NCBI GenBank assembly: GCA_020723805.1
Contig: DYID01000003.1
Span: 124,001 to 188,000, forward strand
Direction: 5' to 3'
Source of the DNA: Anaerolinea sp.
Lineage (GTDB): Bacteria; Chloroflexota; Anaerolineae; Anaerolineales; Villigracilaceae
Length of the DNA stretch: 64,000 nt
Within the stretch, counting starts at the first letter, position 1, and every line of letters starts with the position of its first letter. The position numbers and the translations under genes were made by a program. Positions 27,609 through 47,830 of this stretch are shown here, in pieces. The notes beneath the pieces were generated by a model. The model searched no databases. It worked only from the letters and a program-made list of their open reading frames with translations, and was not told the DNA's origin.

Positions 27609-28691
27609 TCACCTCCCATACCGATAATACGCCGCGCACGCCCCCTCCGCCGAGACCATCGTCGCGCCAAGCGGATGTTCCGGCGTACATTGCTTCCCGA
27701 ATGCTGAACAATCGTGCGGTTTCTTCAAGCCTTGCAAAATCTGACCTGCAATGCACAGCGGCGATTCCTCCGCGCGGACGGCTTCCACATCGAAGCGCTT
27801 CTCGGCGTTGAACTCGTCGAACTCCGGGCGCAAACACCAGCCGCTCATGGGAATCATCCCAATGCCGCGCCACTTGCGGTCGCACTCCATGAACACCTTG
27901 TTGATGGCATCCTGCGCGGGCTTCAACCCCTCGAACGTGACCGCCCGCTGGTAAGCGTTGGCAACTTCCACTTTGCCCGCCTCCAGCAATTGCACGGCGG
28001 TCAAAATTCCCTGCACAATGTCGAGCGGCTCGAAGCCCGTCACCGCCATCGGGACCCGAAACTTTTCCGCCAGCGGCGGATACTCCCAATAGCCCATCAC
28101 CGCGCACACATGACCCGCCAGCAAAAATCCCTGCACACGATTGGCGGGCGAACTCAAAATGGCGTGAATCGCCGGCGGCACGCGCACATGCGAAACCAGA
28201 ATCGAAAAGTTTTTCAACCCCAGCCGCTGTGCCTGTAACACACTCATCACGTTCGGCGGGGCGGTGGTCTCGAAGCCGATGGCAAAGAACACCACCTGCT
28301 TATCGGGGTTTTGCTGCGCCAGCGTCACCGCATCGAGCGGGGAATAGACCACGCGCACATCGCCGCCCTGCGCCCGCACCGAAAACAGGTCACGCCCCGA
28401 GCCGGGCACCCGCAGCATGTCGCCATAGGAGCAAAAGATCACGTCCGGGCGTGAAGCGATGGCGAGCGCCTTGTCAATCAACTCCAGCGGCGTCACACAC
28501 ACCGGACAGCCCGGTCCATGCACCAACTCGATTTCCGCCGGCAGCAGTTGATCAATCCCATGCCGAACGATGGCATGAGTCTGCCCGCCGCAAATCTCCA
28601 TCAGCGTCCACGGGCGCGTCACCGTGCGGCGAATCTCCTCGATCACGCCCTGCACCAGCGCTGCGTCGCGGTATTCCGTTACATACTTCAT
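27609..28691 (-). CDS. hypD: Hydrogenase maturation protein HypD
   Basis: 360-residue iron-sulfur scaffold on which the Fe(CN)2CO group is built with Hyp[10 protein letters not shown] (about 31-39) contains one of the catalytic cysteines, and [10 protein letters not shown] and [12 protein letters not shown] are the conserved central motifs. The C-terminal cysteines needed for the [4Fe-4S] cluster are present ([18 protein letters not shown]). It overlaps hypC by 4 bases, implying coupled translation. Confidence 0.96.
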
Positions 28692-35864: not shown

Positions 35865-36761
35865 TTACCTTACACACCTGAACCCAACCCCAGGGCTGAA
35901 GTACATGGGCGGGGCGGAGTTGCGCACCCAAATGCGCAAGTCCATGTCGTAGGTATCTTTCGAGCCGCCTTTCAGCCAGCGGTCGCTGAAGCCTTCCATC
36001 GGCTGCACGTCGCCAATCCACTGCCAGACGTTGCCCGCCATGTCGTAGAGTCCATAGGGGCTGCGCGAGTCGAGCGTTTGATAACCGTCGTAGGCGTTTC
36101 CGTTGTAGAAGCCGACGGGCGTGCTGCGCGAGCCGAAGGTGCGCATGTCTTCAAACGGGTCGCGCGAGGCGTAGAAGTTGGCGTTGTTGCGTTGAATCTC
36201 CCAGCCCCAGGGGAAGGGACGCGCGTCGGTGCCGCGGGCGGCTTTTTCCCATTCCAATTCGGAGGGCAGACGCCAGCCATAATATTGACAGTAGCCCCAC
36301 GCGCCGAACCACGTCACCATCGTCATCGGGTGGTTTTCGTATCCTTCCTGGACCGTGAAGCGGGTCCCGTCAAATTTGACTCGCTGCGACGGGTCGGCGA
36401 GAGGGATGTATTGCCAGTCGCCTGCTTTGATTTCCAGTTCGTGCTTGATGCCGTGGAACGGATCGCCGGGGTAATAGCCGAGCACCGAGTTGCCTTCGAC
36501 TTTGATTGTGCCGTCGGCGAGGGCGGCGTTGAGGAAGTCGGCGTATTGCTGTGTCGTCACGTCGGTGACCATGATCTCGTAGGCGTCGGTGGATTTCACT
36601 TCCTCGTGCTGACCGAAGAGGAATTCACCCGCAGGAACTTGCGCCCAGGAGGTCGGGTCAACGCCCGTGTCGTAGACGGGGAGGGGGGCGTTCAGGTCAA
36701 CGGGGGCGCAGGAAGCCAATAAAGCGGCGAGCAGGCTGAGGGTCAGAAAGAGGCGTTTCAT
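35865..36761 (-). CDS. SUMF1/formylglycine-generating-like lipoprotein
   Basis: 298-residue precursor. Lipoprotein signal LFLTLSLLAALLASC (lipidated Cys18). The rest is one SUMF1 (FGE-sulfatase) domain: VPAGEFLFGQHEE, TTQQYADFLNA, MVTWFGAWGYCQYYGWRLPS, LEWEKAARG, YDMAGNVWQWIGD and the ending GVGFRCVR. The paired cysteines of true formylglycine-generating enzymes are not evident, so it is more likely a binding or accessory protein of this fold than an FGE. The ATG overlaps the end of the oxidase-like gene by 4 bases, so the two products are made together and probably work in one extracytoplasmic complex. Confidence 0.85.
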   Translation of the reverse strand: MKRLFLTLSLLAALLASCAPVDLNAPLPVYDTGVDPTSWAQVPAGEFLFGQHEEVKSTDAYEIMVTDVTTQQYADFLNAALADGTIKVEGNSVLGYYPGDPFHGIKHELEIKAGDWQYIPLADPSQRVKFDGTRFTVQEGYENHPMTMVTWFGAWGYCQYYGWRLPSELEWEKAARGTDARPFPWGWEIQRNNANFYASRDPFEDMRTFGSRSTPVGFYNGNAYDGYQTLDSRSPYGLYDMAGNVWQWIGDVQPMEGFSDRWLKGGSKDTYDMDLRIWVRNSAPPMYFSPGVGFRCVR

Positions 36762-38224
36762 TTTGCCACCTCCTGCGCGAGTTCGTGAGTCATCTCTTCC
36801 GTCCAGCGTCCCTTCGGTTTGAAGAGGTCTATCAAACGCCAGACCATGACGACGGCGAGCAGGACGAGCAGGAAGCCAAGTCCGAAGTCAATCATGTACA
36901 TCAGCATATTGACCAGCGGCTGCTGCTCCGCTTCGCTGATGAACAGACGCTTCATCTCGAAGATCGTCACCGCGCCGAGGGCGAGGTCGGAGAGAAAGAT
37001 AATGCCCCAGCCGTAGAGTTGGCGGACTTTGCCCTTCAGCCCGATCATGTCGCCGTAGTAAAGCAGGATGATGGTGGCGATGATGGCGGAGAGGGCGTGC
37101 CAGTGTCCCGTCAGTTCGATGCGCTCCTCGCGGGCGGGCCACAGGCGGAAGATGTCGTCGAGTTTGATTGCCATGAAGATGCCGATGCCGCTGGTGGTGA
37201 AGTTCATGAAGAGCATCTGCCAGGTGGGACCGAACTTGAGCGGGTCGCGCACCATCGCGCCGAGTTTTTGCAGGAAGGTCGGTTTGGCGAGATGCGCCGT
37301 GCCTTCCTTGATGAACTTGTTCCAACTCCAGATGAGCAGAAAGAGCGCCGCCAGCATGGAGGGTGTTGCGCCGACGTAGATAATCATGTGCGCAATGGGT
37401 TCGAGCGGCGTGACCACGCCCCACACGCCCAGGTTGAGGACAATACAGCCGAGGATCATCAGCGGCATGGCAATTTTGTGCCACGCGCCCTTGAAGTCCA
37501 GCCAGCGCCCGATGATGAGCGTGATCATGATGCCGATGAGCGCCAGCATGATGTGCAGATGCCCGATGATGGAATATTCCATTGTGGTCTTTTCGGGGTA
37601 GCGGATGATGTTCTCGGCGAGGAAGGATTCGAAGCCGTGACCGTAGTACGAGCCAGGGATTGCGCCAAAGAGGGCAGAGATGACGGTGGTAAGAGCGGTG
37701 GTGAAAAAGGCGGCGCGCTCGAGGTCAACGCCTTTCTTCGTGCGAGCGTAGTTCGTGTCGGTGATGAAGTAGGCGGGGTCCCAGGGATTGAGGGCGATGG
37801 TGAGCAATACGCCTGCGAAGAAGATGAGCGCGAGACCTGTGATGTATAGTCCGTGGAACGCCCAGTTGTGACCGAAGTAGGCGAAGCCCATGCCGAAGAT
37901 CATCGCCAGCATGTAGCCGACGGTGATAAGCACGCGCACGGCGGTTTTATAGAACTCTTTCATCTTCAAGAGTCCCGTCACCATGTAGGTTTCGATGGCG
38001 ACGACCGCCATGGCAATCGAGTGATAGAGGATGATGATGCGTCCCTCGCGCTCGGATTGCTCGATTTTCATGCCGAGCAGTTTGATGACCACCTCGCGCA
38101 CGCCCATCTCTGCCATGGGACCCGAGAGCATCCCCCAAATGGCGGTGACGATGGCAATCATGGCGATGGCGACGAGGATGAGTCCTTTTGTGGAGCCGAA
38201 GAGGTAGTTGAAGCGTTCTTTCAT
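36758..38224 (-). CDS. Heme-copper-oxidase-like membrane protein with atypical histidines
   Basis: 488 residues, about twelve hydrophobic helices. Histidines lie in helices as in oxidase/NO-reductase subunit I: His68 (ILYHSIAM), His119/His124 (FGHNWAFHG), His222/His224 (IIGHLHIM), His279 (EPIAHMII) and His374/His376 (LTGHWHAL). The canonical copper motifs HPEVY and the adjacent His pair are absent. So it could be a divergent heme-copper oxidase or NO reductase, or a heme-only relative. The ATG at 38224 with AAAGGA upstream excludes a longer reading through repeats. It is coupled to the SUMF1 lipoprotein, with heme O synthase downstream. No subunit II or cytochrome c gene is nearby. Confidence 0.6.
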   Translation of the reverse strand: MKERFNYLFGSTKGLILVAIAMIAIVTAIWGMLSGPMAEMGVREVVIKLLGMKIEQSEREGRIIILYHSIAMAVVAIETYMVTGLLKMKEFYKTAVRVLITVGYMLAMIFGMGFAYFGHNWAFHGLYITGLALIFFAGVLLTIALNPWDPAYFITDTNYARTKKGVDLERAAFFTTALTTVISALFGAIPGSYYGHGFESFLAENIIRYPEKTTMEYSIIGHLHIMLALIGIMITLIIGRWLDFKGAWHKIAMPLMILGCIVLNLGVWGVVTPLEPIAHMIIYVGATPSMLAALFLLIWSWNKFIKEGTAHLAKPTFLQKLGAMVRDPLKFGPTWQMLFMNFTTSGIGIFMAIKLDDIFRLWPAREERIELTGHWHALSAIIATIILLYYGDMIGLKGKVRQLYGWGIIFLSDLALGAVTIFEMKRLFISEAEQQPLVNMLMYMIDFGLGFLLVLLAVVMVWRLIDLFKPKGRWTEEMTHELAQEVAK

Positions 38225-38240
38225 AGTATGTCCTTTGACT

Positions 38241-39489: not shown

Positions 39490-40317
39490 CTACGCTTGGG
39501 CGTTCCACGCCTCGAGCATTTTCTTTGTGCTGGGGAGCAGCAGGTAAATCAACAGTCCTGTGCTCATCAACGGCGCAGGCAGGAACATCGAGAAGCGGTG
39601 GACTTCCACGAGGGCGTTGTGCAGTCCGAGCGGATAGCCCGCCAGCATGGACATGCTCGCCGCGAACACGCCTACGGGAATCGCCCACGACTTCTTGCTC
39701 AACACGGCAAAGATGAACATCGCCCACGCCGCCGCGCCCCACCAACTGACCTCTTGCAGAATCACGTACATCCCGTTCCAAAACGTGTTTGGATTCTCAA
39801 CAAACGTTGTCGGCATTTGGAAGGTAGTCTGGAATTTGGAAATTGGCGCGACGCCGTCAATGAAGGTCAACACATAAGCCAATCCCGCGACGAACGTGAG
39901 GGTGATGATCTTCTTGTCCACGCCGCCGATGAAGAGCATTCCGAACCACATCACACCCGCCAGCAGGAACACCCACATCGTCGGGACGGGCAGTCCGCTG
40001 TCGGCGGCGGGAATCATGGGGAAGAAACCAGCCAGCAGGAGAATCGTTGCGGCGACAGCGCCCCAGAACCAAGCCCAATCCTGTTTGTGCAGGAACCCCC
40101 ACAAAACTGCGACTGAGAGCGCGCCCGCAGCCGTGCCCAGCCAGCCCAGCACCGCGTACACGATCCGTACCGTATTGCTCTCTTCCCAATCCCCCGCGTT
40201 GAAATGGGTGTGAATGACAGCGTTATATGTGTCTGCAATGAAATACAGACACAAGATGCCTGCCACAATTCCAAGGATGGCAAGGACAGTTCCAAGTTTG
40301 TGATTGTTTTTCATCAT
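39490..40317 (-). CDS. Membrane protein of unknown function
   Basis: 275 residues with seven or eight transmembrane helices, for instance LGTVLAILGIVAGILCLYFIA and AAWAMFIFAVLSKKSWAIPVG. Several His and Trp residues lie near membrane faces (VIHTHF, GLHNALVEVHRFSMF). I do not recognise the family. The ATG follows AAGGAGAAATG and the gene starts 11 bases after the CopD-like gene, so it is co-transcribed with it and the BON gene from the promoter at 41136-41177. Confidence 0.75.
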   Translation of the reverse strand: MMKNNHKLGTVLAILGIVAGILCLYFIADTYNAVIHTHFNAGDWEESNTVRIVYAVLGWLGTAAGALSVAVLWGFLHKQDWAWFWGAVAATILLLAGFFPMIPAADSGLPVPTMWVFLLAGVMWFGMLFIGGVDKKIITLTFVAGLAYVLTFIDGVAPISKFQTTFQMPTTFVENPNTFWNGMYVILQEVSWWGAAAWAMFIFAVLSKKSWAIPVGVFAASMSMLAGYPLGLHNALVEVHRFSMFLPAPLMSTGLLIYLLLPSTKKMLEAWNAQA

Positions 40318-40328
40318 TTCTCCTTTTT

Positions 40329-40820
40329 TTATATGCCGAGCGGCCGAGCGAGCGCGGCGGTGAATCCGCTGGTGAGCAGAACCAGCACAGCCAGCGCGGC
40401 GTTGATGAATAACAGTTTCATATTCAGGCGTTCCTTTTTGGACGTTATTCCCGATTGCGCGCGTCCGAGAACCAGGCTTCGATACAGCGAGATTCCGATC
40501 ATGGCGATGACCAGGATATGCTTCATGGACAACGCTGCCGAATAAGCGTTCCCGAACGCGAACAGCGCTTCAAACTGCGGACTGGGGTTGGTCATCAGCA
40601 AACCTGTCAAGATTAAGCTTGCCATACTGACATATACCCAAATACTCTGCCGTTTCTGGAATTCCATCATCACTTTTTTGACCTGAGGACCCCCGCCGAG
40701 CGCGTTTTTTACAGCGGGCAAATATGCCAGGACAGTGACAAGCAATCCGCCCATCCAGATGGCGGTGAACAGATCGTGGAAGAACGAGACCAGCGCGAAG
40801 ACGATGACTTTTGCAGTCAT
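40329..40820 (-). CDS. CopD-like membrane protein
   Basis: 163 residues, four to five helices. FALVSFFHDLFTAIWMGGLL, with His in helix 1, and SMKHILVIAMIGISLYRSL, with His in helix 4, resemble the CopD/DUF2269 four-helix family of copper or heme-associated membrane proteins. The ATG at 40820 has AAAGGAAA upstream; a longer reading through the BON gene is rejected. It lies 4 bases after the BON gene stop. Function uncertain; copper handling is possible. Confidence 0.65.
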   Translation of the reverse strand: MTAKVIVFALVSFFHDLFTAIWMGGLLVTVLAYLPAVKNALGGGPQVKKVMMEFQKRQSIWVYVSMASLILTGLLMTNPSPQFEALFAFGNAYSAALSMKHILVIAMIGISLYRSLVLGRAQSGITSKKERLNMKLLFINAALAVLVLLTSGFTAALARPLGI

Positions 40821-40824
40821 ATTT

Positions 40825-41103
40825 TTATTTCCTTTTGTCTTTAATATCCAAGTGAATAGTTCTCGCAGGGCTGGGCGCGCCGGGCGCTTCGATGCGATTG
40901 ACAACTGCCAGCACACCAGGCGTGCTCTGAGCCAGTTCCGCCGCGAGAAGGCGCGTTTCGATGGAGTTCACCACCCCTGCGAGATGGGCGATCCCGTTCA
41001 ACACGCCCACGCGCAGGTTGGCGTATGCTGTGCGCTCGTCCGCCGCGAAGCGGGATAGAATGGCGGCGCGCAGTTTTTCATCGGAGACGAAAGGGGTGGT
41101 CAT
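40825..41103 (-). CDS. BON-domain protein
   Basis: 92 residues comprising one BON domain: VSDEKLRAAILSRFAADERTA, then NLRVGVLNGIAHLAGVV and LAQSTPGVLAVVNRIEAP. There is no signal peptide, so it acts in the cytoplasm, unlike OsmY. BON domains bind phospholipids or other ligands. Start at ATG 41103 (a GTG one codon earlier is possible); no strong Shine-Dalgarno. It leads a three-gene unit with CopD-like and 39490, with its own activator-dependent promoter embedded in a hairpin. Confidence 0.85.
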   Translation of the reverse strand: MTTPFVSDEKLRAAILSRFAADERTAYANLRVGVLNGIAHLAGVVNSIETRLLAAELAQSTPGVLAVVNRIEAPGAPSPARTIHLDIKDKRK

Positions 41104-41112
41104 CACATCACA

Positions 41113-41159
41113 AAAAAACAGGTCCGTCTGTTTTCAGTGTACAGACAGACCTGTTTTTT
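41113..41159. terminator. 19-bp stem hairpin, terminator containing a promoter
   Basis: Arms AAAAAACAGGTCCGTCTGT (41113-41131) and ACAGACAGACCTGTTTTTT (41141-41159) pair with one mismatch, 9-nt loop. The T-run on each strand suits intrinsic termination of the gene at 41186. The BON promoter -10 lies across loop and arm. Confidence 0.85.
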
Positions 41160-41177
41160 GCATACGACTTTTGTCGT
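41136..41177 (-). promoter_or_regulatory. Class II Crp/Fnr-type promoter of the BON unit
   Basis: Palindrome ACGAC-TTTT-GTCGT (41164-41177) is centred exactly 32 bp from minus-strand -10 TACACT (41141-41136). Same motif and spacing as the promoters at 42083, 42868 and 43271. Confidence 0.72.
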
Positions 41178-41185
41178 GTTAATTT

Positions 41186-41596
41186 TCACAAACTGCCGCT
41201 GTCCAGGCGTGCCTGTCTACCGGCTTTCCTGCCGTTATGTGACTGGATAAGCATCAATCCCAGAATGATCGCCCAGGCGACGATTCGAACCGTCATATCC
41301 TCCAGGCTGTGAGCCGAAACGATGCCGCGATAAGCGCTCAGCAAAATGAGCATGACGCTGGAATGCGCGGCAAAGGTCGCGAGGGCGGCGGGCAGGGCGA
41401 GTCTGTTATTTTTCCAAATGAGGATGGCGGTGAGAAAAACGGTCAATACGCCGACCGTGTAGTTGTAGAGTAACAGCCAGTTGATGACGTAGTAATCCGT
41501 TTCCTGCCCCAGCAGAACCAATCCGCCTGCGGCGACCGCGATGCCGCCGATCAGGAATGCAAGGGCAGACGCAATTTTATTCAGGGTAGCGTTCAT
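41186..41596 (-). CDS. Small membrane protein, tandem paralogue 2
   Basis: 136 residues, four helices. Paralogous to the protein at 41681: shared NKIASxLAFxIGGxA, YYVINWLxxYNYTVGxLTVFxTAILIW and MTVRxxxWAIIL segments. The ATG at 41596 follows AAGGAA; a longer reading passes through a CCCGAAGG hairpin. No recognised family. It is the second gene of a duplicated pair under the promoter at 42083-42124, and its transcript ends at the hairpin 41113-41159. Confidence 0.78.
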   Translation of the reverse strand: MNATLNKIASALAFLIGGIAVAAGGLVLLGQETDYYVINWLLLYNYTVGVLTVFLTAILIWKNNRLALPAALATFAAHSSVMLILLSAYRGIVSAHSLEDMTVRIVAWAIILGLMLIQSHNGRKAGRQARLDSGSL

Positions 41597-41620
41597 TTTG
41601 ATTCCTTCGTATGCCAGACC

Positions 41621-41669
41621 ATCCCGAAGGTTGAGACTCTTCACTTTGTTCAGGGCAAGCCTTCGGGAT
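41621..41669. repeat. CCCGAAGG hairpin, copy 1
   Basis: ATCCCGAAGG (41621-41630) / CCTTCGGGAT (41660-41669), between the two tandem paralogues. Sister copies at 43328-43383 and 47848-47901. Confidence 0.85.
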
Positions 41670-41680
41670 GTTGTGTTTTG

Positions 41681-42058
41681 TTACGCAGTTTTGTTCTTTC
41701 GCTGTTGGAAAAACATCAGGGTCAAAATGATCGCCCAGACGATCAGTCGAACCGTCATGGCGCGGATGCTGTCGGGCGCAACCACATTCTGGTAGGCTGT
41801 TTGCAGGATGAGCATGACGAAGGCGTGCAGGCTGAACGTCCCGATGGCGACCGTTTTGGCGAGTCTGCTGTTGATCCAGATCAGGATGGCGGTGATGAAA
41901 ACGGTCAGGATGCCGACCGTGTAGTTGTAGACTGGCAGCCAGTTGATGACATAGTAGCCAGGATCATTGCCCAGCAGGACCTTTCCGCCTGCAAAGATTG
42001 CCATGCCGCCGATGATGAAGGCGAGGATAGACGCGATTTTATTGAGAGTAGTGTTCAT
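41681..42058 (-). CDS. Small membrane protein, tandem paralogue 1
   Basis: 125 residues with four hydrophobic helices and short loops; see 41186 for the shared segments. AAGGAGAAG precedes the ATG. The protein is about 50% identical by eye to its neighbour, so the pair arose by tandem duplication. The promoter carries the ATGAC-TTAA-GTCGT palindrome in class II position, so it is likely induced by a Crp/Fnr regulator, probably the one divergently encoded at 42174. Function unknown. Confidence 0.8.
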   Translation of the reverse strand: MNTTLNKIASILAFIIGGMAIFAGGKVLLGNDPGYYVINWLPVYNYTVGILTVFITAILIWINSRLAKTVAIGTFSLHAFVMLILQTAYQNVVAPDSIRAMTVRLIVWAIILTLMFFQQRKNKTA

Positions 42059-42082
42059 TTTCTTCTCCTTTGAGTTGCAGGC

Positions 42083-42124
42083 AGTATATGTCTCTCCTGC
42101 CGGCAGGTTAATGACTTAAGTCGT
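42083..42124 (-). promoter_or_regulatory. Class II Crp/Fnr-type promoter of the tandem membrane genes
   Basis: ATGAC-TTAA-GTCGT (42111-42124) is centred exactly 32 bp from minus-strand -10 TATACT (42088-42083). A second palindrome ATTCCGT-A-ACGGAAT (42126-42140) and a plus-strand -10 TATAAT (42142-42147) for the regulator gene follow, so the region also controls the divergent regulator. Confidence 0.72.
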
Positions 42125-42173
42125 AATTCCGTAACGGAATGTATAATCGCAGGCAATGAAATGGAATGAAAAT

Positions 42174-42863
42174 ATGAACGAACCCGCCTCCCCGCGCGCC
42201 GCAGAAATTTTGAAAGCCGTCTCCTATTTTTCAGCTTTGGATGATGCCGCCCTGGACTTTGTTGCACAAAGAACCATCCGCCGCGTCTACGAGGCGGGAC
42301 AGGTGATCCTGATCGAAGGCGAGCCGTGCGCCGGGTTGTACATTGTCGAAAGCGGCTGGCTGAAAGCCGTCAAAATCGGGCTGGACGGGCGTGAACAGGT
42401 ACTGCAAACACTCAAGCCTGGGGAGGTGTTCAACGGCATCAGCGTCTTCACCGACGCACCCAACCAGGCGAGCATATCCGCGCTGGAAACCTCGGTCGTC
42501 TGGCTCGTCCCGCGCGAGGTTCTATTGAAATTAATGGATGAACACCCAGCGTTGATGCGGCAGGTGGTGAAGGAACTGGCAGGGCGCGTCATGCACCTGG
42601 TTCGCATGGTGGAGGACTTATCCCTGCGCTCGGTGGAAGCGCGCCTGGCGCGGCTGTTACTGGAGCAGGCGGAGGGCGAATCCGTCCAGCGCCGGCGCTG
42701 GGCGACGCAAGCCGAAATGGCTTCCCGCCTCGGCACAGTGCCAGACGTGGTCAACCGCGCCCTGCGCAAATTATCGGAAGAGGGTTTGATCCGCGTGGAA
42801 CGCCACCAAATTCAGATTTTGGATCAAGAGGGATTAAAGGCTGTTGCACAAGTGATGGAATAG
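42174..42863 (+). CDS. Crp/Fnr-family regulator
   Basis: 229 residues. The N-terminal cyclic-nucleotide-type beta barrel holds VILIEGEPCAGLYIVESGWLK, a long dimerisation helix follows (LAGRVMHLVRMVEDLSLRSVEARLA), and the C-terminal winged helix reads TQAEMASRLGTVPDVVNRALRKL with recognition helix at about 190-202. No N-terminal cysteine cluster is present, so it is not an FNR-type iron-sulfur sensor; heme or another ligand is possible. ATG 42174 fits a short leader from the -10 at 42142-42147; ATG 42156 is the alternative. It sits among four promoters with a shared palindrome and is the best candidate for their activator. Confidence 0.88.
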   Translation: MNEPASPRAAEILKAVSYFSALDDAALDFVAQRTIRRVYEAGQVILIEGEPCAGLYIVESGWLKAVKIGLDGREQVLQTLKPGEVFNGISVFTDAPNQASISALETSVVWLVPREVLLKLMDEHPALMRQVVKELAGRVMHLVRMVEDLSLRSVEARLARLLLEQAEGESVQRRRWATQAEMASRLGTVPDVVNRALRKLSEEGLIRVERHQIQILDQEGLKAVAQVME

Positions 42864-42867
42864 AAAA

Positions 42868-42909
42868 CCGATAAAAGTCGTTGAATGAATCCTGCCCTGG
42901 GCATATGCT
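42868..42909 (+). promoter_or_regulatory. Class II Crp/Fnr-type promoter of the ferredoxin gene
   Basis: CCGAT-AAAA-GTCGT (42868-42881) is centred exactly 32 bp from -10 TATGCT (42904-42909). The left half-site is the weakest of the four. Confidence 0.6.
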
Positions 42910-42937
42910 CAGGGCAGTTTTGTTTCTGGAGTCGTTT

Positions 42938-43195
42938 ATGACCCAATTCACCGACAGACCGATTCCCCTCATTGACCCGCAACGCTGCGACGGGTGCGGC
43001 TTGTGCGTGCGCGCCTGCCCGACGAAGGCGTTGGCGTTGCAGGATGGCAAAGCCGTGGTCGCCAATCCGCTGGCGTGCGAATACAGCGGGCTGTGCGAGG
43101 CGGTCTGCCCTGCTCAGGCTATCACGCGCCCGTTTGAAATTGTGGTCGCAGATGGAAAGTACGTCGCACCAGACGGGCAGACCGATTCCGCTTAG
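42938..43195 (+). CDS. Dicluster 4Fe-4S ferredoxin
   Basis: 85-residue protein with CDGCGLCVRACP (about 19-30), which binds one [4Fe-4S] cluster. A second, modified motif (CEYSGLCEAVCP, CxxxxxCxxxCP) may hold another. DxxRCDGCG-type spacing resembles NIL/HdrA-associated ferredoxins. TGGAG precedes the ATG; a longer reading starts inside the promoter region. Small electron carrier in the cytoplasm, under Crp/Fnr control like its neighbours. Confidence 0.88.
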   Translation: MTQFTDRPIPLIDPQRCDGCGLCVRACPTKALALQDGKAVVANPLACEYSGLCEAVCPAQAITRPFEIVVADGKYVAPDGQTDSA

Positions 43196-43270
43196 GCAAG
43201 GAACCCTCCTCGATTGGCATTGTCCTGTTTAGGCAGGTGCGACGCACTCGCGGAATTGACTTCCTCAAAT

Positions 43271-43312
43271 TCGACAAAAGTCGTTGAGAAAGATGGAATG
43301 TCTGTCTACAAT
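43271..43312 (+). promoter_or_regulatory. Class II Crp/Fnr-type promoter of the M50 protease gene
   Basis: TCGAC-AAAA-GTCGT (43271-43284) is centred exactly 32 bp from -10 TACAAT (43307-43312). Confidence 0.75.
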
Positions 43313-43410: not shown

Positions 43411-43947
43411 ATGAACTGGTCACTCAACCTGCTCAAAGTCAAAGGGATCAATATCAAAGTTCACCTGACCTTTGTGTTGATTCTCATCTGGGCGGCGTAT
43501 CGCTGGAGCATCAACACAGGCGAGGGCGTGCAAGGTGCCATCTTCGGCATCGTGGCGACGCTATTGCTCTTCTTCAGCGTGACCCTGCACGAACTCGGTC
43601 ACAGCCTGCAAGCCATCAAGTTCGGCGTGCGTGTGCGCGACATCACTCTCATGCCGATGGGCGGATTGGCACAGATGGATGAAATCCCCGAAGAGCCGAA
43701 CAAGGAATTGCGGATCGCCCTCGCGGGTCCGCTGGTCAACTTCGGCATTGCCGCCCTCCTGATCGGGATCGGTGCGCTTCTCGACGCCCGCGCCCTGCTC
43801 TCGTTAAATGAACTGTACGCCTCGCTCGGGCGCGTCAGCTGGAGCGGACTGCTGGCGTACTTGACCTCCGCCAACCTGATGCTGGGATTCTTCGGCTCTC
43901 CCGTAAATAACGGGAAAAGCAGAAAGGATGTGCTAATATCGGAGTAG
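43411..43947 (+). pseudogene. Site-2 protease (M50) with CBS domains, 5' part, split by an insertion sequence
   Basis: The ATG with AAAAGGAGA upstream begins MNWSLNLLKVKGINIKVHL. VTLHELGHSLQAI at about 57-69 is the zinc HExxH motif inside a membrane helix; MPMGGLAQMDEIPEEP is also conserved. After Phe161 (43891-43893) the frame runs into the ISL3 element and stops at 43947. Removing the element and one copy of its 8-bp target duplication restores one frame with the part at 45197, giving a 376-residue intramembrane protease with a C-terminal CBS pair. The second zinc ligand (DGG motif) is in the other half, so neither piece should be active alone. Confidence 0.93.
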
Positions 43948-43961
43948 AAAGGTGACTTCCG

Positions 43962-44420
43962 ATGAACAACAACGAATTGCTCAACCGATTGCTCGGCATC
44001 CAAAAGCTGCAAGTGATAAAGTCTGATTTCATTGGCGAAGAGAGAGTCCATCTGGAAGTGGCATCAATCTTGTCTGTTGCGAGCTGCCCCGACTGTGGAC
44101 AGCTCAGCAATCTGGTGCACGATGAAAGCGAAGCCCAGATGATTCGCGATCTCTCCATTGCGGAAAGACAGTGTTACCTGGTCTATCGGGCACGGCGGTT
44201 CAAATGCGAGCCATGCAAAAAGACGTTTGTCGAACGAGTCGAATGGAAACGCGCCAATGTCAGTTACACCGAGCGGTATGAGCGTTATATCTATCAACGC
44301 GTTCGCCGTGAAAGTATCAGCCAGGTAGCGCAGGATGAAGGCCTGAGCGAAGAAGCCGTGCAAGGCATCTTCGAATACCGGGCAAAAAAACGACGGAGGC
44401 ACGCGGCTATCCGCAAGTGA
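43962..44420 (+). CDS. ISL3 transposase, N-terminal frame
   Basis: 152 residues. The zinc-finger DNA-binding region CPDCGQLSNLVHD and CEPCKKTFVER is followed by the helix-turn-helix YIYQRVRRESISQVAQDEGLS. Alone it lacks the catalytic domain. Near its end, seven As (44384-44390) are read as (A)AAA-AAA in this frame. A -1 shift there continues into the catalytic frame and yields a typical 404-residue ISL3 transposase. Without shifting, the frame adds RRRHAAIRK and stops. Confidence 0.9.
   Translation: MNNNELLNRLLGIQKLQVIKSDFIGEERVHLEVASILSVASCPDCGQLSNLVHDESEAQMIRDLSIAERQCYLVYRARRFKCEPCKKTFVERVEWKRANVSYTERYERYIYQRVRRESISQVAQDEGLSEEAVQGIFEYRAKKRRRHAAIRK
44384..44390 (+). other. Probable -1 frameshift site A-AAA-AAA in the transposase
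   Basis: Seven As in the X-XXY-YYZ phase of the first frame, followed by C. Slipping back one base gives ACG-ACG-GAG and joins the second frame with the normal ISL3 sequence (ARGYPQVRAICFDEIAL). Transcriptional slippage is an alternative. Confidence 0.7.
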
Positions 44421-45175
44421 GAGCGATTTGTTTCGATGAGATTGCGCTCCATCGTGGACATGGCAAGTTTGTCCTGGTCATCTCGGCTCCCGAATTGGGG
44501 CTGGTTTTGGACGTTTTGCCAGACCGCAACAAGGAAACCCTGCTGAAATGGCTGGAGGAACGCGGAAGCGAGTGGTGTGCGGCTGTCCAGTACGCCTGTT
44601 CTGATATGTGGGACGCCTACCAGCAAGCCGCTGAACAGAAATTGCCCAATGCACGCCGTGTGGTGGACCGTTTCCACATCATGAAGAACTTGAACGATGC
44701 CTTGACCAAAGCCAGGCGCCTCATCCAAAAAGACGCTGATGAACAGACCAAAGAACTGCTCAAAGGCTGCCGTTGGTTACTGGTCAAGAACCGCGAGAAC
44801 TTGAGCGAAGAACAGGAAAAGCAACTGGCTGACATGTTGAAGGCTTCGCCTGAATTGAAACAGTGCTACGAACTGAAAGAAGCCTTTCGCGATTTGTTCA
44901 ACCAGAACCTCACACCCAAAGCCGCTGAAAAACGATTGCGGCGTTGGATCGCCAAGGTGGAAGCCCTGCCCTTCAAAGCTTTGAAGGCGTTCGTGCATAC
45001 ACTGCAAAATTGGTGGCAGCAGATCTTGAATTATTTTGACGGTCGCTTCAACAACGGCTTTGCCGAAGGAGTGAACTTGAAAATCAAAATGCTCAACCGT
45101 CGCGGTTATGGGTACCGTAATTTCAATTCCTTTCGTTTACACGTTCTCGTCGCTTTTGACCCAATTTCCCGTTAA
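44417..45175 (+). CDS. ISL3 transposase, catalytic frame
   Basis: 252 residues from a GTG overlapping the first stop by 4 bases. DDE residues: Asp in CFDEIALHRGHG, Asp in CSDMWDAYQQA and Glu in GFAEGVNLKIKML. The frame is open upstream to the seven-A site, supporting expression as a fusion by frameshifting. As a free product it would be a truncated catalytic domain that could act as inhibitor. The C-terminal NRRGYGYRNFNSFRLHVL is the family signature. Confidence 0.92.
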   Translation: MRAICFDEIALHRGHGKFVLVISAPELGLVLDVLPDRNKETLLKWLEERGSEWCAAVQYACSDMWDAYQQAAEQKLPNARRVVDRFHIMKNLNDALTKARRLIQKDADEQTKELLKGCRWLLVKNRENLSEEQEKQLADMLKASPELKQCYELKEAFRDLFNQNLTPKAAEKRLRRWIAKVEALPFKALKAFVHTLQNWWQQILNYFDGRFNNGFAEGVNLKIKMLNRRGYGYRNFNSFRLHVLVAFDPISR

Positions 45176-45196
45176 AAACGGGAGAGCCGATTCTTC

Positions 45197-45844
45197 AACC
45201 TCATCCCTGCCTTCCCGATGGACGGCGGACGCATCCTGCGCGCTTTATTGGCAAAGAAGATGAATCACGCCAAAGCCACGCAGATCGCCGCGCAAATCGG
45301 GCAGGGACTCGCCCTGCTGATGGGGCTGTGGGGCTTCATGAGCGGCAGTTGGACTCTCGTCCTCATCGCCATCTTCGTCTGGATGGGCGCGGGGCAGGAA
45401 AGCCAGGGGGCGCAGGTCAAGCATACGCTGGGCGAAACAACCGTCGGTCAGGCAATGACGCGCTCGCCTCACGTGCTGAGAGTCAACGATTCGCTGTCCA
45501 AAGCCGTCGAGTTGACGCTCACCACCTCCCAGTCCGATTTTCCCGTGTTGGAATGGGGCAGTAATCGAGTTGCAGGTTTCATTAGCGAGCTCGACCTCCT
45601 GCGCGGATTGCAATCCCTGGGCGCAAATGCGGCGGCGCGCGAAGTCATGCGGACGCGCATCGCATTCGCCAGCCCCGACGAACCGCTGCACGCCGCGCAG
45701 CAGAAAATGCTGACGAGCCGCACGCGTGCCCTGCCCGTGCTGAATGGCGGCGGCGAACTCATCGGCTTGCTGACCGCCGACGATATCAACGAAGCCTATC
45801 GCCTGATGGCGGTCAGCCCGAAACCCGCGCTCAACGCGCAATAG
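45197..45844 (+). pseudogene. Site-2 protease (M50) with CBS domains, 3' part
   Basis: Begins after the right target duplication with NLIPAFPMDGGRIL, the NPDG-type motif whose Asp is the third zinc ligand. Two CBS repeats follow (TVGQAMTRSPHVLRVNDSL and AAREVMRTRIAFASPDEPL). No start codon of its own is convincing; the Met in PMDGG at 45218 could give a CBS-only protein if transcribed from the element. The undisrupted gene would be a rhomboid-like regulated protease of the M50B family with CBS sensing. Confidence 0.92.
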
Positions 45845-47067: not shown

Positions 47068-47781
47068 TTACCGTTCTTCTCGCGCCGCCAAACCTTGCGG
47101 GTCGAGCAGAATGATTTCGCGGCGTTCCACTTTCAAGAGACCCTCCTTTTCCAGTGTGTGTAACGCGCGGCTCAGCACGTCGCGCACGGTGCCCAGCCGT
47201 ACCGCCATCTCGTCGAAGGTCGTCCACTCGCGGCGCGGGACGATGAGTTGACCGCCGCGCAGTTCGGCATTTTGCAGCAGCGTATGCGCCAGCCGTGACT
47301 CCACGCTCCGCAGGGACAGGTCTTCAGCGAGGTGAATGTAGTGAAGCACACGCTCGCCGAGATGACGGATGACCGCCATGGCGAGCTCAGGGTGGCGCGG
47401 AATGAGTTCGAGAATCGCTTGTGCCGGAATGACCCACACATCCACATCCTCAAGCGCGACGACAGTGCCAGGATAGGTCGTGCCGGTGAACACGGCGATG
47501 TCGCCAAACACTTCGACGGGACGCAGGAACATCATTGCCTGTTCGCGCCCGTCGCGGGACATGCGTGTGGCTTTGACCCAGCCCGATTCGAGGATGTAAA
47601 CTGATTCGGCGGGTTCGCCTTCCACGTAGATGACTTGTCCCGCCGCGAAGTGACGCGGAGAAGCGGACGCGGCGATTCGTTCCTGGACCTCGAGCGGGAG
47701 TTCGTCAAAGTGGCGGATTCGAGCGAGGAGCGCTTTCAGCCGCGTCAAATGCTGGGGAGCGGGAGGCGGGTTGAGGGTCAT
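47068..47781 (-). CDS. Second Crp/Fnr-family regulator
   Basis: 237 residues. Beta-barrel domain with GQVIYVEGEPAESVYILESGWVKA, central helix RHLGERVLHYIHLAEDLSLRSVESRLA, and winged helix FDEMAVRLGTVRDVLSRALHTLEKEGLLKVER. The recognition helix GTVRDVLSRAL is close to, but not the same as, GTVPDVVNRAL of the regulator at 42174, so related but distinct DNA sites are expected. No Cys cluster. ATG 47781 is preferred; GTG 47796 is possible. It faces the plus-strand stress genes and could act on the FNR-like sites in the window. Confidence 0.88.
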   Translation of the reverse strand: MTLNPPPAPQHLTRLKALLARIRHFDELPLEVQERIAASASPRHFAAGQVIYVEGEPAESVYILESGWVKATRMSRDGREQAMMFLRPVEVFGDIAVFTGTTYPGTVVALEDVDVWVIPAQAILELIPRHPELAMAVIRHLGERVLHYIHLAEDLSLRSVESRLAHTLLQNAELRGGQLIVPRREWTTFDEMAVRLGTVRDVLSRALHTLEKEGLLKVERREIILLDPQGLAAREER

Positions 47782-47830
47782 GGAAGATGCAAACACCAGT
47801 GTCGGACTCTGCGCTGTAATACTTAAGGTA

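Follow-up and report, generated by a model that had tools for sequence, protein, structure and literature searches.

Several regulators of the Crp/Fnr superfamily serve as reference points for the locus described here. In CRP, which responds to cyclic AMP (cAMP), Arg82 contacts the phosphate of the cyclic nucleotide; FNR, a 4Fe-4S protein, has four essential cysteines; and a site centred at -41.5 occupies the position of class II activation. We analysed a 64,000-nucleotide stretch of an Anaerolinea sp. genome (contig DYID01000003.1 of GCA_020723805.1, positions 124,001 to 188,000; the window), in which four palindromes at a fixed distance from -10 hexamers lie around the gene of a Crp/Fnr-type regulator. 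The nearest described motif that we found is that of HcpR, wyTTGACnnnnGTCAArw (TTGACnnnnGTCAA), with ferredoxin-like and norB targets in the consulted sections of Rodionov et al. 2005 (PMC1274295), which also give TTGATnnnnATCAA and ctTTGcgnnnncgCAAag as motifs of DNR/NnrR. Crp/Fnr regulons have been predicted in an anammox reactor from published matrices of other organisms (PMC8510549), in a paper whose main text does not contain the word Chloroflexi. A motif-string search of the literature indicated no paper expected to contain CGACAAAAGTCG or CGACNNNNGTCG; CGACTTTTGTCG and CGAC-N4-GTCG were not found among the matches listed, in which each paper contributed one string, GACAAAAGTC, or GACNNNNGTC in the case of PMC1274295. 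Our literature searches found no description of such gene regulation in Anaerolineae. An initial annotation of the window, made from the sequence alone, had been aware of no regulon described with this motif and these genes; this holds as far as the literature searched is concerned, but the GAC-N4-GTC core has a precedent in HcpR, according to the same sections of PMC1274295.

By all the sequence evidence, the palindromes belong to a real regulon of the Crp/Fnr type, with several paralogous regulators that have related operators and with promoters that overlap putative terminators. We consider this explanation as a whole (operators of Crp/Fnr paralogues, class II activation, and overlaid terminators) to be quite probable. 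The four sites and the two regulators encoded in the window, reg1 and reg2, are the following:

41164 to 41177, minus strand: site 1 palindrome ACGACAAAAGTCGT, with an A..T flank of the reg2 type; one of the four exact CGACAAAAGTCG matches in the genome
41136 to 41141, minus strand: site 1 -10 hexamer, TACACT
42111 to 42124, minus strand: site 2 palindrome ACGACTTAAGTCAT, flanked by gene 41681 and reg1, which are divergent
42083 to 42088, minus strand: site 2 -10 hexamer, TATACT
42868 to 42881, plus strand: site 3 palindrome CCGATAAAAGTCGT, immediately 3' of reg1
42904 to 42909, plus strand: site 3 -10 hexamer, TATGCT
43271 to 43284, plus strand: site 4 palindrome TCGACAAAAGTCGT
43307 to 43312, plus strand: site 4 -10 hexamer, TACAAT
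42156 to 42863, plus strand: reg1, Crp/Fnr-type regulator of 235 amino acids (cNMP_binding 3.5e-24, HTH_Crp_2 5.5e-15)
47068 to 47796, minus strand: reg2, Crp/Fnr-type regulator of 242 amino acids (cNMP_binding 2e-26, HTH_Crp_2 4.2e-11)

All four sites have the -10 hexamer at the same offset, designated +29: the first base of the hexamer is 29 bases past the palindrome centre, the hexamer comprises bases 30-35, and its middle is 32 bp away. Judged by the -10 position, the palindromes are centred at -41.5, provided that the hexamer spans -12 to -7. The initial annotation had reported four palindromes exactly 32 bp from a -10 hexamer in class II geometry. Its coordinates and letters proved right, and the geometry holds, by -10 position, for the four sites and for 77 of 129 sites in relatives; the four sites are as it described them, except that two of the palindromes have imperfect cores (CGACTTAAGTCA at site 2, CGATAAAAGTCG at site 3). 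When the window was scanned for CGAC-N4-GTCG with at most one mismatch and TAnnnT at +29, using 150 order-1 Markov windows as the null, five matches were found (the four sites, within 2.1 kb, and one at 27653); the random windows averaged 0.16 matches and never exceeded 2. In the same scan, each of the other offsets between 8 and 49 yielded 0-2 matches. The match at 27653 was set aside and is taken as a chance occurrence.

The host genome (3.69 Mb, 54 contigs) has relatives named Chloroflexi, Anaerolineales, and Anaerolineaceae, among others. In orthologous loci, reg1 is 65-82% identical, and the sites are retained together with the spacing (L numbers denote loci, C numbers contigs). Site 2 is kept with TATACT at +29 in L022, L023, L025, and L027; site 3 in L021, L022, L024, L027, and L049; and site 4 in the same five loci as site 3 and in L052. 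TACACT at the site 1 spacing is also found in L022, L025, L080, L112, L137, L139, and L167, among others. In one relative, the reg1 copy has an in-frame stop (L027:1501-2190, L053:6001-6690), yet the sites and spacing are kept.

For a broader count, exact CGACAAAAGTCG matches were collected from 174 loci, picked for a similar regulator or for the palindrome and never for the -10 hexamer (of the places listed for the palindrome, the count covers 30 that came as loci of their own and those contained in 80 regions). Once copies sharing a 75-base context and sites too close to a locus end had been removed, 129 distinct sites were left. TAnnnT was found at +29 in 77 of them, compared to 0-3 at other offsets from 7 to 53; at upstream offsets of -60 to -7, the mean was 0.85 and the maximum 5. 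Of the 62 exact sites that have a Crp-type gene within 400 bp, 51 carry the hexamer at +29, versus 26 of the 67 others; 52 of these 62 sites lie 3' of the gene on the same strand, nine are divergently upstream, and one is 3' on the other strand. The spacers vary among the three regulator classes described below, and the spacing is constant. A count centred on regulators (42 distinct proteins from L019-L065, loci fetched for their similar regulators, the window's own included and two copies with internal stops left out) gave 38 hexamers at +29 and at most 3 at each of the other offsets from 10 to 49. Asp is found at position 181 (CRP numbering) in 86 of 97 rows aligned to reg1; a promoter is 3' or divergently upstream of 29 of the 39 regulators with Asp-181, versus none of the three without it.

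As an out-of-family control, we used a draw from the phylum (76 places, all fetched), which yielded 75 distinct readable sites. TAnnnT was at +29 in one of the 75 and at +33 in eight. Seven of the +33 sites constitute one group, AAAACGACAAAAGTCGCTTGAC with TATAAT or TACAAT (L203, L205-L208, L211, L212); these promoters, from genomes of one other family, are a separate promoter type or regulon with a common 12-mer. The 12-mer alone was rejected as a marker, since it lacks the spacing out of family and one family has the hexamer at +33.

In the host genome itself, CGAYWWWWGTCR is found 25 times on the forward strand and 28 times on the reverse strand (control, 8 and 8). Combined with TAnnnT at +29, as the initial annotation had proposed for a genome scan, it gives six distinct sites: the four in the window and two elsewhere, C11:89282 and C10:15627 (L300), the latter of which may be a chance match. 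Many of the remaining CGAYWWWWGTCR matches are part of a palindromic repeat dispersed over the genome, GTAGT-NN-CGACTWWAGTCG-NN-ACTAC, which occurs in many places (L005-L018, L292-L319) and is a trap for motif scans; AACGACTWWAGTCGTT matches, being part of this repeat, were rejected as regulon members. One could suppose that the palindromes themselves are a repeat or a terminator and not operators, given that the repeat contains CGACTWWAGTCG and that a palindrome of the reg3 type, seen from the opposite strand, resembles a stem followed by a T-run. Yet none of the flagged repeat copies has TAnnnT at +29, and a spacing fixed in 77 of 129 sites, versus three or fewer at any other downstream offset, is unexpected for a repeat or a terminator. 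This alternative is already largely refuted by the fixed spacing, and we regard it as very improbable.

The palindromes are better read as operators, in our proposal those of Crp/Fnr-type regulators of Anaerolineae and related Chloroflexota. The assignment of the regulators to this superfamily, made in the initial annotation, is borne out: reg1, reg2, and a third paralogue, reg3, which is encoded on contig C11 and has its own site there (C11:89282), all match PF00027 and PF13545 above cut-offs, i.e., the cNMP-binding and Crp-type helix-turn-helix families. The regulon had been described as local; it recurs in relatives and is both wider and more highly organized than that. A reg3-type site is present twice in tandem, 115 bp apart, at L001:1501-1627, with the hexamer at +29 only at the cupin-proximal copy.

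The reg2 and reg3 clades are well supported in the tree (100/99 and 99/93), with nine long-branched rows outside. The classes differ in the base pair outside CGAC..GTCG, which we counted for promoters within approximately 300 bp 3' of distinct regulators. Flanks are A..T in all seven reg2-class promoters and C..G in 36 of 39 of the reg3 class (the rest being two G..T and one T..A), so that the class-matched sites are ACGAC..GTCGT and CCGAC..GTCGG, respectively; those of the reg1 class are mixed (n = 12: C..T 5, C..A 3, T..T 2, C..G 1, T..G 1). One regulator (L064) is of the reg1 class by best match but has C..G flanks, and the tree places it beside the reg3 clade. The recognition-helix sequence is VRDVLSR for reg2, VPDVLSR for reg3, and VPDVVNR for reg1.

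An alternative is that reg1 alone controls the four window sites, which would then form a single local regulon: it is encoded in the middle of them, and the core CGAC-W4-GTCG is common to all sites. However, site 1 carries the flank and the TACACT hexamer of promoters that are linked to reg2 in three other genomes, where the palindrome of an A..T/TACACT promoter is centred 27 bp (L080), 36 bp (L112), and 42 bp (L167) beyond the point at which the reg2 match ends. The site 1 spacer is nearly identical in L080 and less alike in L112 and L167, and a BON gene is downstream of the A..T promoter in L080 and L167. Because of this flank, hexamer, spacer likeness, and BON gene, as well as the uniform A..T flanks of the reg2 class, we consider control by reg1 alone unlikely. 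Instead, at least three paralogues exist, and an assignment is proposed for three of the four window sites: reg1 probably drives sites 3 and 4; reg2, encoded 5.9 kb away in the window, probably regulates site 1 and with it the BON operon; and reg3 probably acts on the C11 row of cupin, heme-copper-fold, cytochrome b561, and cytochrome c genes. The initial annotation had named the regulator at 42174 or the one at 47068 as the likely activator; both are probably in play, but a single motif with a single regulator does not agree with flanks that track the regulator class.

The mode of action proposed here is that a dimer would bind N-CGAC-W4-GTCG-N centred at -41.5 and contact RNA polymerase as in class II promoters, activation being the most likely outcome, with transcripts predicted to start near 41129, 42076, 42916, and 43319. 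Similarity to TTGACA at 17-bp spacing averages 1.12/6 in C..G promoters (43 sites) and 2.5/6 in A..T promoters (26 sites). The lack of a -35 resemblance in the C..G promoters favours activation, which is the natural reading for C..G and A..T promoters alike.

Several observations weigh against this reading. Many of the sites in relatives are orthologous copies, so that the 77 hexamers at +29 are not independent events. Ten of the 39 Asp-181 regulators have no qualifying promoter: in L042 and L047, the hexamer is one base off; in L059, L061, and L063, there is a palindrome but no good -10; L035, L038, L045, L051, and L057 fail the promoter rule too. Outside the family, four sites have a distant regulator within 600 bp, and none of the four has the hexamer. 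Support for the reg1 clade is moderate (93/80), and the site 2 flank varies (A..T in the window and in L025, C..T in L022, L023, and L027). Finally, reg1-like, mixed-flank promoters average 3.55/6 to TTGACA (33 sites), and at sites 3 and 4, -35-like hexamers abut the palindrome 17 bp upstream of the -10 (TTGAAT, 4/6, and TTGAGA, 5/6), which makes repression at these two sites possible. Activation by the regulator, as initially proposed, is suggested by the geometry but is less secure where such elements occur. If the same Crp-type proteins were to repress at some or all sites by covering a sigma-70 promoter, the C..G and A..T promoters, which would be weak without an activator, and the class II position of the palindrome would not be expected; we consider general or partial repression unlikely.

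Apart from activation, the preferred reading includes a layout that the initial annotation overlooked, in which a terminator-like hairpin at site 1, and another at site 3, has the -10 at its loop:

41113 to 41159, minus strand: terminator-like hairpin and T-run at site 1, minimum free energy (MFE) -27.5 kcal/mol, z -8.5
42892 to 42917, plus strand: terminator-like hairpin downstream of reg1, with a T-rich tail, at site 3, MFE -22.3 kcal/mol, z -3.4

The loop of the site 1 hairpin holds five of the six -10 bases, and the site 3 hexamer begins in the loop and ends in the 3' arm; at sites 2 and 4, no comparable hairpin was found (z -2.2 and -0.6). In relatives, the same hexamer is enclosed by stems of different sequence (e.g., L137, L139, L030, L167), and at site 3 an unrelated hairpin is present in L021, L022, L024, L027, and L049. 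We surveyed 107 sites (four of them from out-of-family loci), assigning the upstream gene by a simple open reading frame (ORF) rule. Where the flanks were not C..G, a hairpin with a T-run was found at 16 of 34 sites whose upstream gene is codirectional, versus 3 of 24 for which it is divergent (Fisher p 0.0096), and at 1 of 5 with no upstream gene of either kind; among C..G sites, the count was 1 of 44. The effect is modest: the hairpin is absent from 18 of the 34 codirectional non-C..G sites and from 35 of the 36 codirectional C..G sites. When exact sites with the hexamer were counted more strictly, a spanning hairpin was present in 4 of 20 sites of the reg1 class, 5 of 11 of the reg2 class, and 0 of 41 of the reg3 class.

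The simplest reading of these data is that the terminator of the upstream gene is overlaid on the promoter. Where the upstream gene is codirectional, its intrinsic terminator would often overlie the promoter in such a way that the -10 falls at the loop; the hairpin would halt read-through, and the promoter's own transcripts, beginning near the 3' arm, could not form it. If this is true, the same DNA segment terminates one transcript and initiates another without the two interfering, in a layout that recurs. By eye, a G+C-rich hairpin with a T-run was also seen to begin near the expected transcript start in L137 and L139 (similar in L138 and L159); in L137 and L139, these are A..T-flank promoters with a divergent upstream gene.

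In comparison with the described systems, the locus shares with Escherichia coli CRP the class II centre at -41.5 and the GA-N6-TC core spacing, and differs from its motif, TGTGA; Arg at the position of Arg82 is missing in all 86 Asp-181 rows (75 Pro, 9 Gln, 1 Leu, 1 His), unlike in cAMP-responsive CRP. With FNR it has the half-site spacing in common, i.e., N4 between GAY and RTC, but the FNR motif is TTGAT, and the full frames of reg1, reg2, and reg3 contain 1, 0, and 0 cysteines, short of the four of FNR. The Asp-181 rows have none in 65 cases, one in 12, two in seven, three in one, and four in one, as counted in aligned stretches from which the N-terminus may be missing. The absence of the cAMP arginine together with few or no cysteines makes a heme- or NO-type (nitric oxide) signal plausible, and a redox or NO signal is likewise plausible for reg1-reg3. 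With the NO-responsive DNR/NnrR, the regulators share the Crp/Fnr fold, and the targets here include heme-copper-fold membrane proteins; the DNR/NnrR motifs given above differ from the operator of this locus.

It is conceivable that reg1-reg3 are HcpR-type NO sensors and that the regulon is that of HcpR with a drifted motif, a comparison that we made by motif, residues, and genes. In both systems, a Crp/Fnr-family regulator is encoded near a target, the core is GAC-N4-GTC, and ferredoxin-like proteins are among the targets; here, a ferredoxin gene adjoins the regulator gene, and heme-copper-fold proteins are targets as well. Pro or Ser at position 180 in HcpR of the TTGAC type, as given in the sections of PMC1274295 consulted, was counted as a further likeness. 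On the other hand, the outer TT..AA letters of HcpR are not conserved and are replaced by N-C..G-N, Asp is at position 181, and the gene set is another one. The sole Prismane-family (PF03063) gene of the genome had no one-mismatch site with TAnnnT at +29 in the 4.7 kb read around it by eye; this gene may encode Hcp or carbon monoxide dehydrogenase. Among solved sequences, the best matches are Crp/Fnr-family proteins (59-85 bits), and DNR scores 54-64 bits (for reg1, among the best 60 of 96). An HcpR identity therefore seems to us doubtful, and we retain operators of distinct paralogues as the preferred explanation.

The genes downstream of the four sites are the following:

40825 to 41106, minus strand: BON-domain protein, first gene after site 1 (BON 5.6e-12)
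40329 to 40820, minus strand: CopD-like membrane protein (CopD 3e-05, below the curated cut-off)
39490 to 40317, minus strand: membrane protein, no family; recurs downstream of A..T-flank promoters (cluster c4)
36758 to 38227, minus strand: membrane protein, which may share the site 1 transcript; no family at E<=0.001; model with predicted local distance difference test score (pLDDT) 78
41681 to 42058, minus strand: small membrane protein (ORF, no family), first gene after site 2
41186 to 41596, minus strand: small membrane protein (ORF, no family), second gene after site 2
42938 to 43195, plus strand: ferredoxin-like 4Fe-4S protein, after site 3 (Fer4 2.6e-12)
43411 to 43893, plus strand: M50 protease, 5' part of the site 4 target (Peptidase_M50 1.7e-15)
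45218 to 45844, plus strand: CBS domains, 3' part of the site 4 target (CBS 1.9e-19)

Pfam and NCBIfam gave no confident family for the membrane proteins 36758, 38368, and 39490 or for that of C11. The best Protein Data Bank (PDB) matches of the 36758 model are oxidases and nitric oxide reductase, at E 0.02 and worse with a query template modelling (TM) score of about 0.5-0.6, and by this model the protein probably has a heme-copper-oxidase fold; its sequence search against PDB gave no match up to E 10. The C11 row comprises the cupin gene, the membrane protein gene, and then cytochrome b561- and cytochrome c-like genes, the latter two being 73% and 69% identical to proteins of relatives that Pfam assigns to cytochrome b561 and cytochrome c. 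A model of the C11 membrane family, made from the L124 relative (pLDDT 74), best matches a cbb3 oxidase chain (query TM 0.74, E 5e-4), so that a heme-copper-oxidase fold is likely. Two membrane families that have no confident Pfam or NCBIfam name (36758-38227 and L320:3728-4906, modelled via the L124 relative) thus likely have this fold, and the regulon offers a handle on their function.

Heme-copper-fold, cytochrome, and redox targets are indicative of a redox- or NO-linked programme, and the signal would be redox or NO-like. A wider generalization is somewhat less likely to be right than wrong, namely, that duplicated Crp-type activators of Chloroflexota, with specificity split by one flanking base pair per side and with promoters in upstream terminators, run a redox programme around heme-copper-fold membrane proteins. 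With the predicted motif, regulators, targets, and starts, the paralogue series would offer a natural case for how Crp-type proteins shift specificity.

The target set of the initial annotation is supported, with a small correction at site 4, where the M50-CBS gene is split by an ISL3-type insertion (43894-45188) with a two-frame transposase (Pfam DDE_Tnp_ISL3) and an 8-bp target duplication, GATTCTTC. At site 2, the 41681 and 41186 proteins are paralogous by eye. Between site 2 and reg1 there is a further palindrome, ATTCCGT-A-ACGGAAT (42126-42140), which adjoins TATAAT at 42142-42147, a possible reg1 promoter.

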